Below, piece after piece: positions 3 through 20,950 of a DNA stretch of 64,000 nt. Source of the stretch: Marinomonas hwangdonensis (GTDB taxonomy: Bacteria > Pseudomonadota > Gammaproteobacteria > Pseudomonadales > Marinomonadaceae); NCBI RefSeq assembly GCF_003721245.1, contig NZ_RIZG01000001.1, positions 496,001 through 560,000 of the forward strand. Direction: 5' to 3'. The notes under the pieces were generated by a model. It was not told the origin of the DNA. It worked only from the letters and a program-made list of their open reading frames with translations, and did no database searches. The position numbers were made by a program, and so were the translations under genes. Each line of letters opens with the position of its first letter. Within the stretch, counting starts at the first letter, position 1.

Positions 3-266
3 ACGTTAGAGCAAATAGTGCAGGCGGGTATTGCTCGTGAATTTGCCTTGTCGCTGCAAACAGAGTTCTTGCTTAGAATCAAAGAGCAGCGTAAAAATGT
101 GAGAACGTGGAACAGTGAATTTTTTAAATACGTAAAACGCCAGTGGCAATACAAACAATCGGATCGGTCTTCATATGAAGGAACCACAAGCAGTTCAAAA
201 TTTAGTAGAACCTCTAAAGAACAAGTTAGCGATGCCCTCAGCAACATCCACGACACAGACTGGTGA
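3..266 (+). CDS. DnaT-like primosomal protein, C-terminal part (5' truncated by window edge)
   Basis: The frame is open from the window edge and ends at a TGA at 264-266, so only the last 87 residues are visible. The pattern of a Gly-Ile/Glu-Phe helix, a basic stretch and WNSEFFKYVKRQWQY resembles the DnaT ssDNA-binding domain, in which a conserved Trp/aromatic face binds single-stranded DNA during helicase loading. A Ser/Thr-rich linker follows, then a short conserved tail ending NIHDTDW. The reading frame overlaps the downstream lambda P-like gene, so the two are likely translated together. The tail is almost repeated at the end of the prophage replication protein at 20078-20950. Assignment rests on family pattern; the N-terminal domain cannot be seen. 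Confidence 0.6.
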   Translation, partial: TLEQIVQAGIAREFALSLQTEFLLRIKEQRKNVRTWNSEFFKYVKRQWQYKQSDRSSYEGTTSSSKFSRTSKEQVSDALSNIHDTDW

Positions 267-7497: not shown

Positions 7498-9039
7498 ATG
7501 TCTCTACCTGCCGAAAAAATATCTTTAGCTTTTAAAGAAAATGAATCTACATTTGAGTCAATATCTAAAAGGCAGTCTCAAGAGTTAGTAATCGGTTTAT
7601 GTGGTACGGTTGGAGCGGGTTTAAAAGCTATTAATAGTAAACTTAAGGAAACTCTAGAAGCATATGAGTATGAAGTTGTTGAAATCGGTCTAAGTGATGT
7701 TATTCGTGAGTATTATAAGTTAGGGTTGTTATCAGGAGTTCAAAGGTATACTGAGCTTCAGGACAAAGGCAATGAAATGCGTCGGGAATTTGGTTCTGAC
7801 ATATTAGCTCGTATTGCAATTTCGAAGATAAGCAAATCAAGAGTTGTTAGTGGAAATGTTGAAAAAGACACAATTAAAACAGGGACTCGCAGAGCTTATA
7901 TAATTAATCAGCTTAAAAATGACCAAGAGGTTAAGTATTTAAAACAAGCTTATGGAAATATTTTTTATCTTGTAGGTGTTTTGAAAGGTGAAAAACAAAG
8001 AATAAAAGAACTTACTCGTGAACAATTAAATCTTCCGGATATTGTTGCATTATTAGAAAGAGATAGAAAAGAGAGTGCTTCAACAGGTCAGCAACTAGAG
8101 AAAACAATTCAAAAATCTGATTATTTCATTAATAACTCTAGTGAAGCAAATATGATTGAGTTAAGTGTTAAGCGCTTTTTAAAGTTAGTGCATGGATCTA
8201 ATGTAATCACACCGACAGTTGATGAGAAAGGAATGTATGCTGCCTATTCTGCATCTTTAGAATCAGCTTGTATGTCACGTCAAGTTGGAGCTGCAATTTT
8301 AGATGATGAAGGTGGGATTGTTTCTACTGGTAGAAATGATGTGCCTAAAGCTCATGGTGGTTTATATTCTGATGGTAATAAGGATCTACGCTGCTATAAT
8401 TATGAAGAAAAAAGATGTAGTAATGATTTTCATAAATCTGTTCTAGAAAGTGAAATTAGAAAGATTGTAGAAACCTCCTTGCGAAGTGAAATTGATAAAG
8501 ATGTTCAAGAATTATCTGAATTAATCTCTAATAAGATCATGAAAGAAAGCAAAGCTAAATCACTTATTGAATACTCTAGGGCTGTACATGCTGAAATGGA
8601 TGCAATAACAAGCTTAGCTCGGAACTCTTCATTAAGTTCTGTTGATAAAATTCTTTATACTACTACTTATCCGTGCCATGTTTGTGCGAGACATATTGTT
8701 GCTGCAGGTATAAAAAGGGTTGTTTATATCGAACCATATGAAAAAAGCTTAGCCCTTGATTTGCATTCTGATGCTATTGAACACAAAGAACCTAAATTGG
8801 ATGATAATTCATCAATAGCTTCTAAGGGTAATAAAGTTTTTTTCGAAAATTTTACAGGTGTTTCTCCTTTTAGATACTCAAAGTTTTTTTCTGCTGGTAA
8901 GCGTAAAAACAATGACGGAGAATTAATCGCCAGTGATGCTAGAGGGAGTGGCCATGTTGACTCTCAGCTTATGGATGGTTACTTTCATTATGAGCTCAAA
9001 ACGATATATGATCTAAATGAAACTTTCCAACAGTTATAA
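7498..9039 (+). CDS. avcD: AvcD-type anti-phage deoxycytidylate deaminase
   Basis: A 513-residue two-domain protein. The N-terminal part (about 28-220) is P-loop kinase-like with a glycine-rich loop at 33-43 (GLCGTVGAGLK). The C-terminal part carries the zinc cytidine-deaminase signature, HAE at about 364-366 and P392-C393-x-x-C396 (YPCHVCARHI). This architecture is that of AvcD/anti-phage dCTP deaminases, which on infection convert dCTP/dCMP to uracil forms and starve phage replication. AvcD is normally restrained by the upstream AvcI RNA. GGAG precedes the ATG. Low GC compared with the phage core marks it as cargo. An ordinary dCMP deaminase would be much shorter. Confidence 0.85.
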   Translation: MSLPAEKISLAFKENESTFESISKRQSQELVIGLCGTVGAGLKAINSKLKETLEAYEYEVVEIGLSDVIREYYKLGLLSGVQRYTELQDKGNEMRREFGSDILARIAISKISKSRVVSGNVEKDTIKTGTRRAYIINQLKNDQEVKYLKQAYGNIFYLVGVLKGEKQRIKELTREQLNLPDIVALLERDRKESASTGQQLEKTIQKSDYFINNSSEANMIELSVKRFLKLVHGSNVITPTVDEKGMYAAYSASLESACMSRQVGAAILDDEGGIVSTGRNDVPKAHGGLYSDGNKDLRCYNYEEKRCSNDFHKSVLESEIRKIVETSLRSEIDKDVQELSELISNKIMKESKAKSLIEYSRAVHAEMDAITSLARNSSLSSVDKILYTTTYPCHVCARHIVAAGIKRVVYIEPYEKSLALDLHSDAIEHKEPKLDDNSSIASKGNKVFFENFTGVSPFRYSKFFSAGKRKNNDGELIASDARGSGHVDSQLMDGYFHYELKTIYDLNETFQQL

Positions 9040-19651: not shown

Positions 19652-19801
19652 ATGCAAATTAAACAGATGTTTTTCAAGCTAATTCGTAAAGTGTCAGCAT
19701 TTTTAATGTTTTGGGCGCCATGTTCTTTGGCGTTTAAGGCGCATTTTTGGGCGTGTAAAAAACTGGATCGTCAGCAAGTGACTAAGGCGGTGGTGTTATG
19801 A
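19652..19801 (+). CDS. 49-residue basic/hydrophobic peptide coupled to the next gene
   Basis: AAGGAATTTAGT precedes the ATG. The product starts MQIKQMFFKLIRKV, contains an aromatic hydrophobic middle with two Cys, and ends in a basic stretch. Its TGA overlaps the ATG of the 91-residue gene (ATGA), which supports real translation. No family recognised; too short for most gene callers. Confidence 0.5.
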   Translation: MQIKQMFFKLIRKVSAFLMFWAPCSLAFKAHFWACKKLDRQQVTKAVVL

Positions 19802-20073
19802 ATTCTAACCTTATCAGCTCAGTCATGAGCTCTCCTTTTGATAACACTGAACACAAGATGGTTCTTGCTCAGATGGCATTTGAAGCCGATGAGCAAGGGT
19901 TGTGCTATGCAGTGATAGAAAAATTAGGTCCAGTTTGCGGATTAAGTCTAACCAAGACTTTTAAAATAATTGAAGAGCTAAAAGAAAGCGGTTGCTTAGA
20001 TTTTCAGCATCACGCCAATAAAGTCGTATTTAAGTTGAATGCCGCCCGTATCACAGAAAAAAAGGCTCATTAG
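19798..20073 (+). CDS. small winged-helix-like phage protein
   Basis: 91 residues. SSPFDNTEHKMVLAQMAFEA followed by LGPVCGLSLTKTFKIIEELK and a DFQHH/VVFKLN strand pair looks like a winged helix that resembles the helix-turn-helix modules of phage replication regulators. It ends 4 bp before the O-like gene start, so a role in replication control is plausible. Not assigned to a family. Confidence 0.55.
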   Translation: MNSNLISSVMSSPFDNTEHKMVLAQMAFEADEQGLCYAVIEKLGPVCGLSLTKTFKIIEELKESGCLDFQHHANKVVFKLNAARITEKKAH

Positions 20074-20077
20074 CTTT

Positions 20078-20950
20078 ATGCAGTTCTCTATTTACCTTAA
20101 CCAGCCAAGAGCACAGGAGTGGGGTTTAAACCTCGCTCAAGCTGTGTTTTTCTCCTACTTGTATGAGGCTCAAAGTTGGTGTGATAGCGAGATCATAAAT
20201 GATCAGGTGTATTACTGGATCAGCAAAGAAAAGGTGATTCAAGAGTTACCAATTCTGTCGGATAAACCAGACACCATTAAGCGCTATTTGAACACATTAG
20301 AAACGGCTGGATTGATACTTAGGAAAGTCATCAGTAATCGTATTTTTGTGGCAATAACAGAGAAGGGAAAGCTTTGGAATCGCACCGATAAAACCCCAAA
20401 AACCACACAAAAAGAGATCAAACCAAGTAGGGAAAAAAATCCCCCCCTTGGTCCTCAGGTGGGGAAAAATATCCCTACTAAGGGGGGAAATAAATCCCCA
20501 CTAGGTAGGGAAAAATTTCCCCCATATCAATATACCAATGATCAGCCTACCAATAATCAAATAGATAAAAGTAAACCAAAAGGTTCGGCTAAGCCTTCGG
20601 TATTGGAAAAACTCAGCGCTCAATATCCAACGATTGAACATGAATCTATCCAGTTTGCCCTAGACCATCGAGCAGCAAAAAAAGCAGCGATGACCGACCG
20701 AGGTTCGAAGCTGTTTTTCGACGAGGTTTTGAATTGTTCGTATGAACTGGGTATCTCGCCAGAGCGGGTTATCGATATCGTGATTAACCGAGATTGGAAG
20801 GGGATAAACACCGAGTGGGTGCGCAAGCACTTGATCGACAACGCGCCACCGGCTCAGCAGCAACTAGCGATAGCGCCAAATAACTTAGCGCCAAACAACC
20901 GTCAAGGCGTTAACGATGCCCTTGGCAACATCAGCGACACGAATTGGTGA
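20078..20950 (+). CDS. O-like phage replication initiator with DnaT-like C-terminal tail
   Basis: 290 residues from the ATG at 20078, just after the preceding stop; a longer in-frame start overlaps that gene. The N-terminal winged-helix region (AVFFSYLYEAQSW ... DTIKRYLNTLETAGLILRKV) should bind the origin. A Lys/Pro/Gly-rich linker (about 115-185) follows, encoded by A/G-rich sequence with repeated GGGAAAAA-type units that could include the origin itself, as in lambda O. A helical C-domain and a tail ending GNISDTNW follow. The tail matches the host DnaT-like tail at 9 of 13 residues. No P-like loader is present in the phage. Confidence 0.7.
   Translation: MQFSIYLNQPRAQEWGLNLAQAVFFSYLYEAQSWCDSEIINDQVYYWISKEKVIQELPILSDKPDTIKRYLNTLETAGLILRKVISNRIFVAITEKGKLWNRTDKTPKTTQKEIKPSREKNPPLGPQVGKNIPTKGGNKSPLGREKFPPYQYTNDQPTNNQIDKSKPKGSAKPSVLEKLSAQYPTIEHESIQFALDHRAAKKAAMTDRGSKLFFDEVLNCSYELGISPERVIDIVINRDWKGINTEWVRKHLIDNAPPAQQQLAIAPNNLAPNNRQGVNDALGNISDTNW

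Follow-up and report, generated by a model that had tools for sequence, protein, structure and literature searches.

The phage O-like replication initiator P0001 and the host DnaT-domain protein encoded in this 64-kb stretch of Marinomonas DNA (the window) end in the same C-terminal tail. We propose, with a probability of roughly 0.74, that the tail acts as a short, portable peptide on which the host helicase loader docks, and that elements without a complete loader have captured it. The preliminary description had suggested that the tail recruits the host P-like loader. Its occurrence on unrelated protein bodies, its exclusion by an element's own P and an E. coli parallel support such a role, with the contact itself proposed from sequence comparison. 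The relevant features, all on the forward strand, are:

3-266, forward: C-terminal part of the host DnaT-domain protein (DopC-like; PF17948 DnaT, 26.7 bits, cut-off 25)
225-266, forward: host tail VSDALSNIHDTDW plus stop, overlapping the loader gene start, which is read in a different frame
232-981, forward: host P-like helicase loader (DopE-like, 249 aa; PF06992 Phage_lambda_P, 37.6 bits, cut-off 26)
19798-20073, forward: small HTH-like protein (91 aa) upstream of the initiator (phrog_4617, replication initiation, E 2.5e-7)
20078-20950, forward: phage O-like replication initiator P0001 (290 aa; phrog_11527, E 1.1e-33)
20909-20950, forward: C-terminal tail VNDALGNISDTNW plus stop of P0001 (profile match of 46.3 bits, the same tail being one of the 11 rows that build the profile)

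The phage and host tails are identical at 9 of 13 residues, and their DNA at 34 of 42 nt over the last 14 codons (stop counted). A degenerate tail pattern with up to three mismatches matched the 64 kb at 231-266 and 20915-20950 only, and in shuffled sequence the mean number of matches was 0.00 and the maximum 0. The shared tail and its DNA-level similarity, both claimed in the preliminary description, are thus confirmed, but the pair is not particular to the window phage, since many other initiators carry the tail. The evidence supports a broader form of the idea than was first stated, extending to other initiators, plasmids and E. coli. In a literature search for which subscription papers were mostly out of reach, nothing was found naming a tail common to both proteins.

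The host frame is cut by the window edge; the gene begins before the window and is a 281-aa open frame in the genome. Its product (P0002) belongs to the PF17948 DnaT DNA-binding domain family, and the protein encoded downstream is a P-type loader by PF06992, phrog_109 and the lambda P fold. Lambda P was recovered by fold comparison, unlike in a sequence search of the PDB that started from the loader profile and returned no lambda P match up to E 1. From this similarity the host protein is a putative DnaB loader. The DnaT-like and P-like assignments made earlier stand as domain and loader type, but the pair is better called DopC/DopE-like. In Marinomonas the dopC-like gene is followed by the lambda-P-type loader gene (dopE-like), and the gene upstream of dopE ends in the tail at all 80 named loci examined. 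A host tail copy was found in 47 of 48 Marinomonas genomes. The exception, G031, is the sole genome of the 48 with no DnaT-like, tail or P-like match, and DciA was not found there either. In keeping with a DopC/DopE system, DciA (PF05258) was detected in 0 of 35 Marinomonas genomes (control genomes, 7 of 14 positive). Among 21 other genomes of the order, DciA was found in 8 (7 over the cut-off), all 8 without a DnaT-like match.

The host tail DNA is dual-coding, because the P-like gene already begins, in another frame, within the tail codons, and it shows low variability at all three codon positions. This overlap, seen in the window (225-266) and at L219-L298, went unremarked in the preliminary description. 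In the predicted structure of the DnaT fragment pLDDT is below 50 at residues 58-69, 71-73, 75-77 and 83-87, and the tail is of low confidence, so that the model is uninformative on docking.

P0001 is of O type by sequence (phrog_678, replication initiation O-like, E 5.9e-17). No Pfam family scored above its cut-off, and PF17948 gave no match up to E 0.1. PF04492 (Phage_rep_O), which among the 48 genomes matches only G037:C32, was not found either; P0001 is therefore O-like in role and not a PF04492 member. By eye, a similar-looking 91-aa frame also precedes the initiator at L033. The claimed absence of a P-like gene from the phage was borne out. The only phrog_109 match in the whole source genome (G000) is the host copy, PHROG scans of 19 window proteins (host pair counted) named no loader except the host P-like one, and a local loader profile with a Walker-A scan revealed nothing within 9 kb of the initiator gene.

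A 65% identical P0001 homologue in G018 keeps the tail (..VSDSITNIHDTDW), and a partial homologue in G039 has a damaged one (..INDIHDTSFY). The tail is absent from distant P0001 relatives in phages of Mannheimia, Psychrobacter, Pseudomonas (F116) and Pseudoalteromonas. Of these, Mannheimia phage 587AP2 encodes a P and Psychrobacter pOW20-A a helicase, and no loader is annotated in the stretch read for F116 or Pseudoalteromonas Y7. Conservation among homologues, on which the preliminary description had made its idea depend, holds for the host protein and the G018 phage, but not for these distant relatives.

A 20-position tail profile built from 11 tails was run over the 48 Marinomonas genomes. 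Beyond the host copies it gave 15 matches at E 5.2e-4 or better, all C-terminal, namely 14 phage-type initiators and one plasmid RctB-like protein. Out of 12 further matches at E 0.2-1 only G040:C31 (E 0.525) was taken in; it is a second tail-bearing RctB-like protein, on an 8.1-kb contig. The RctB-like label derives from an annotated relative at 24% identity, and both proteins lack a Pfam or PHROG match. In the genus two of three RctB-like proteins bear the tail, and in other genera none of three plasmid relatives does. The tail-bearing bodies in Marinomonas comprise HTH_36, phrog_270, Phage_rep_O plus Phg_2220_C, P0001-type and RctB-like proteins; 9 of the 14 phage initiators were scanned against the family libraries, and L109, L110, L112, L114 and L115 were placed by similarity.

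The tail tracks the lack of a full-length P. In a body census of Marinomonas phage initiators (18 distinct proteins), it was present on 14 of 14 without a full-length P and on 0 of 4 with their own P (Fisher p 3.3e-4 if independent, which the proteins are not fully, and part of the census used tail-containing queries). Thirteen of the 14 tails keep the Trp and one is damaged (..DTSFY); the G047 protein is a fragment at a contig start. A census with a tail-less query recovered eight proteins, four with their own P and no tail, and four with the tail and a mini-P. The eight HTH_36 matches at E 3.1e-11 or better, less G047:C26:445, comprise six tail-bearing proteins (one damaged) and that of G015, which has no tail and its own P. 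L123 and L104 agree at 192 of their first 200 residues and are alike up to ..DEELPTIR, whereas L123, with its own full P, ends in SSRDWATEMVNEEERF, and L104, with only a mini-P, ends in VNDALSDIHDTDWM. Nearly identical bodies have thus exchanged tails in line with own-P status.

The mini-P (115-122 residues) lies within ~1 kb downstream at 9 of the 14 tail loci (L102-L107, L109, L114 and L115), so these phages are not entirely without loader parts. It is absent at the window phage, L108, L110, L112 and L113, and L125 has a full P plus a mini-P (8108-8464) and no tail. The mini-P lacks ~110 N-terminal residues of P; what remains is the region aligning with lambda P residues ~119-198 in DnaB complexes, only the helicase-binding half, with a D-L-F-x-[ED]-F-P motif near its start. 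Because the mini-P phages lack the N-terminal part of P, we would place the docking site there.

In the family of Marinobacterium sediminicola (G083), which we take to be Nitrincolaceae, 102 of 116 genomes had a tail match at E 0.001. The 16 extra places in genomes with two or three hits are 14 C-terminal tails, one host-type gene and one internal motif; the 14 tails had no P-like neighbor in the stretch read. The host-type gene is L333, a second one that has a loader of its own. In a 748-aa frame on a 7.9-kb contig (L338:952-3198) the motif MDIHDTSW is internal, some way before the end. Nine of the 14 proteins were scanned, and the other five grouped by eye. The scanned bodies include HTH_36 plus DnaT, O-like or DnaD-like and DnaT-domain initiators, Rep3 and phrog_2161; L324 and L329 matched no named family, and four (L325, L326, L335 and L336) have a DnaT domain before the tail.

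At L328, L331, L332, L334, L337 and L322 a ~150-aa CPxCHSR protein of Mu-like-phage type ends in the host-type tail (phrog_2161 match for L328; the others alike by eye, L322 cut). To judge by eye, the frame that follows resembles GemA. Relatives of the phrog_2161 protein in SuMu, H71 and YPCBV-1 adjoin a GemA or Mu gp16-like gene and have no tail.

Compared with one consensus host tail for each group, 15 of 16 element tails per group more closely resembled their own host type, G040 being tied and L325 slightly nearer the other type. A Met seven residues before the Trp is present in all 16 tails of the Marinobacterium-family type (14 genomic, two from viral contigs) and in 0 of 16 Marinomonas elements. 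This apparent host tracking was set aside, because clade-specific profiles detect the other type poorly and the two viral contigs, L321 and L323, came from a Met-demanding pattern.

In lambda-type phages, O beside a full P ends in a TDW, TSW or DDW core in lambda (LTNTDWIYGVDL), D14E and MD8 (both STDWTDQVQL), PAJU2 (NDTSWAVGLEQDLF), AUS531phi (ILHDDDW) and SC_8 (DDTSWANDLGDL). The core is absent from O of phiARM81mr, Y8A, IFTN2, EBPR podovirus 1, PHB09 and Mannheimia 587AP2, i.e., 6 of 12 P-bearing phages (14 loci were read, and L206 and L214, without an O-like frame, were left out). It is also absent from P22 gp18, whose partner is DnaB-like. Halomonas phage QHHSV-1 (L206) shows the reverse arrangement, a P-like gene with no recognizable O frame just upstream. 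Viral contigs were searched with a mixed alignment of P proteins and with the P of one Marinomonas phage, in both cases without a match, and the best 80 of 461 matches to lambda P were near-identical lambda-type loci and were not used. No O tail is described in the accessible portions of two lambda articles (PMC6022878, PMC6391071).

The lambda O end, beside P, would fit common descent, in which DopC and phage O come from one O-like ancestor and have kept the tail with no capture. DopC and DopE are reportedly derived from lambda O and P, and the DnaT domain before the tail of four Marinobacterium-family proteins points the same way. We consider descent without capture unlikely, as the window phage and the scanned phrog_270-type, RctB-like and Rep3 initiators show no DnaT domain and tails are swapped between near-identical bodies. 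Descent of the motif is nevertheless compatible with its later capture.

A parallel is found in enterobacteria. E. coli DnaT ends in ..PDSQIPPGFRG, and the replication proteins of mEp460 and SfV end in ..VDYSQIPAGFRG. SQIPPGFRG of DnaT and SQIPAGFRG of mEp460 agree at 8 of 9 residues, and the last 30 nt of the two genes (stop included) at 24 of 30; no loader is annotated within 3.5 kb. Relatives of the L103 initiator in viral contigs were then sorted by their ends (the best 80 of 428 plus three others, 83 in all). Neighbors were sought as DnaC-like and P-like genes in the stored stretch, up to ~2.5 kb on each side, some stretches ending at contig ends. Within this set, an IPxG(FRG)-type end was found in 54, none of which has a DnaC-like or P-like neighbor (one has a 169-aa Walker-A frame), and a DTxW tail in 6, three of them with a mini-P. 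By contrast, 22 of the 23 with neither end have a loader neighbor, 18 DnaC-like and 4 P-like, the latter presumed identical with the four Walker-A frames seen in the neighbor test. The 54 initiators (50 distinct DNA sequences) seem to belong to a single phage lineage and were therefore counted as one case. L354, L355 and 12 others are HTH_36-type initiators with their own DnaC-like gene and end mostly in ..DYGQSDCNW or similar, perhaps a tail matched to a DnaC-like loader.

The tail might instead bind another host partner (DopC itself, DnaB or SSB), e.g., to join the host restart complex. An acidic, Trp-ending tail could bind other proteins, and the adjacency of tail gene and loader gene in the host shows functional linkage only. 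We hold another partner to be distinctly improbable, given that on nearly identical bodies the choice of tail follows the presence of an own full-length P and that the E. coli-type end goes with the absence of a DnaC-like neighbor.

Two further explanations were weighed and judged weak. What is conserved could be the DNA of the loader gene's translation-start region, the phage tail being a relic of a lost P. The overlap of the host tail codons with the loader start, the well-conserved third codon positions and the 34 of 42 nt in the window would agree with this, but the window phage, RctB-like and Rep3 genes keep the frame and the Trp before the stop with no P-like gene detected behind them, and seven phage tails, the window's among them, match their closest counterpart among 30 host tails at 29-36 of 42 nt; a DNA relic is thus very improbable. 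Chance likeness of two C-termini is negligible, since even for 13 residues shuffling gave 0 matches and the 48 genomes hold 15 non-host matches, all C-terminal.

Our preferred reading is thus a docking peptide, and its mechanism would be as follows. The host adaptor (DopC-like, with its DnaT domain) would present the tail to the P-type loader (DopE-like), which would hold DnaB. In phages and some plasmids that encode no complete loader, the initiator would carry this peptide at its C-terminus and, once bound at the element's origin, would attract the loader and helicase of the host in the manner of the adaptor. Since initiator tails occur mostly where no complete own loader was found, the tail is probably a plug for the host loader; it may contact the loader, probably at the N-terminal domain, and thereby deliver DnaB. 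Counting against the docking peptide are the missing core in half of the own-P phages, the mini-P at most tail loci, the RctB-like protein without a tail and the three tail-less plasmid relatives from other genera. In addition, neither the Marinomonas nor the E. coli counts are phylogenetically independent, and some census queries held the tail. We regard as evenly balanced the wider proposal of a class of C-terminal "loader-call" peptides, in which DnaT/DopC would bring DnaC/DopE, and temperate phages, Mu-like phages and plasmids would repeatedly capture the local version.

A docking tail would account for the start of replication in temperate phages and some plasmids that lack a complete loader, and for the independent recombination of initiator body and tail. 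Under the wider proposal, the DnaC/DnaB contact that is missing from the picture of the E. coli restart primosome would be formed by the final residues of DnaT. In the accessible part of a recent article, the exact recruitment of DnaB/DnaC by the E. coli preprimosome is stated to be unknown, and the DnaT N-terminal domain, not the tail, is favored as the contact (PMC13377028, 2026), a view that counts against the docking tail. The tail idea is directly testable in E. coli K-12, where phages that share the adaptor's last residues point to a deletable peptide of 9-13 residues.

The proposed arrangement can be compared with four known systems. In lambda, O and P load the helicase; in the window phage no P gene was detected, and the initiator carries a host-type tail. 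The DopC/DopE system, a domesticated lambda O/P, likewise consists of two host genes, one of them for a P-type loader, in hosts that lack DciA. The PriA-PriB-DnaT-DnaC restart primosome of E. coli, in which DnaT and DnaC are the counterparts of DopC and DopE, is alike in that the DnaT end recurs on phage initiators, and differs in tail sequence and loader type. In Staphylococcus aureus a phage protein likewise targets the host helicase loader, DnaI, but, as far as the accessible text goes (PMC4887207), it interferes with the loader, whereas the Marinomonas phage would use the loader via a copied host peptide.
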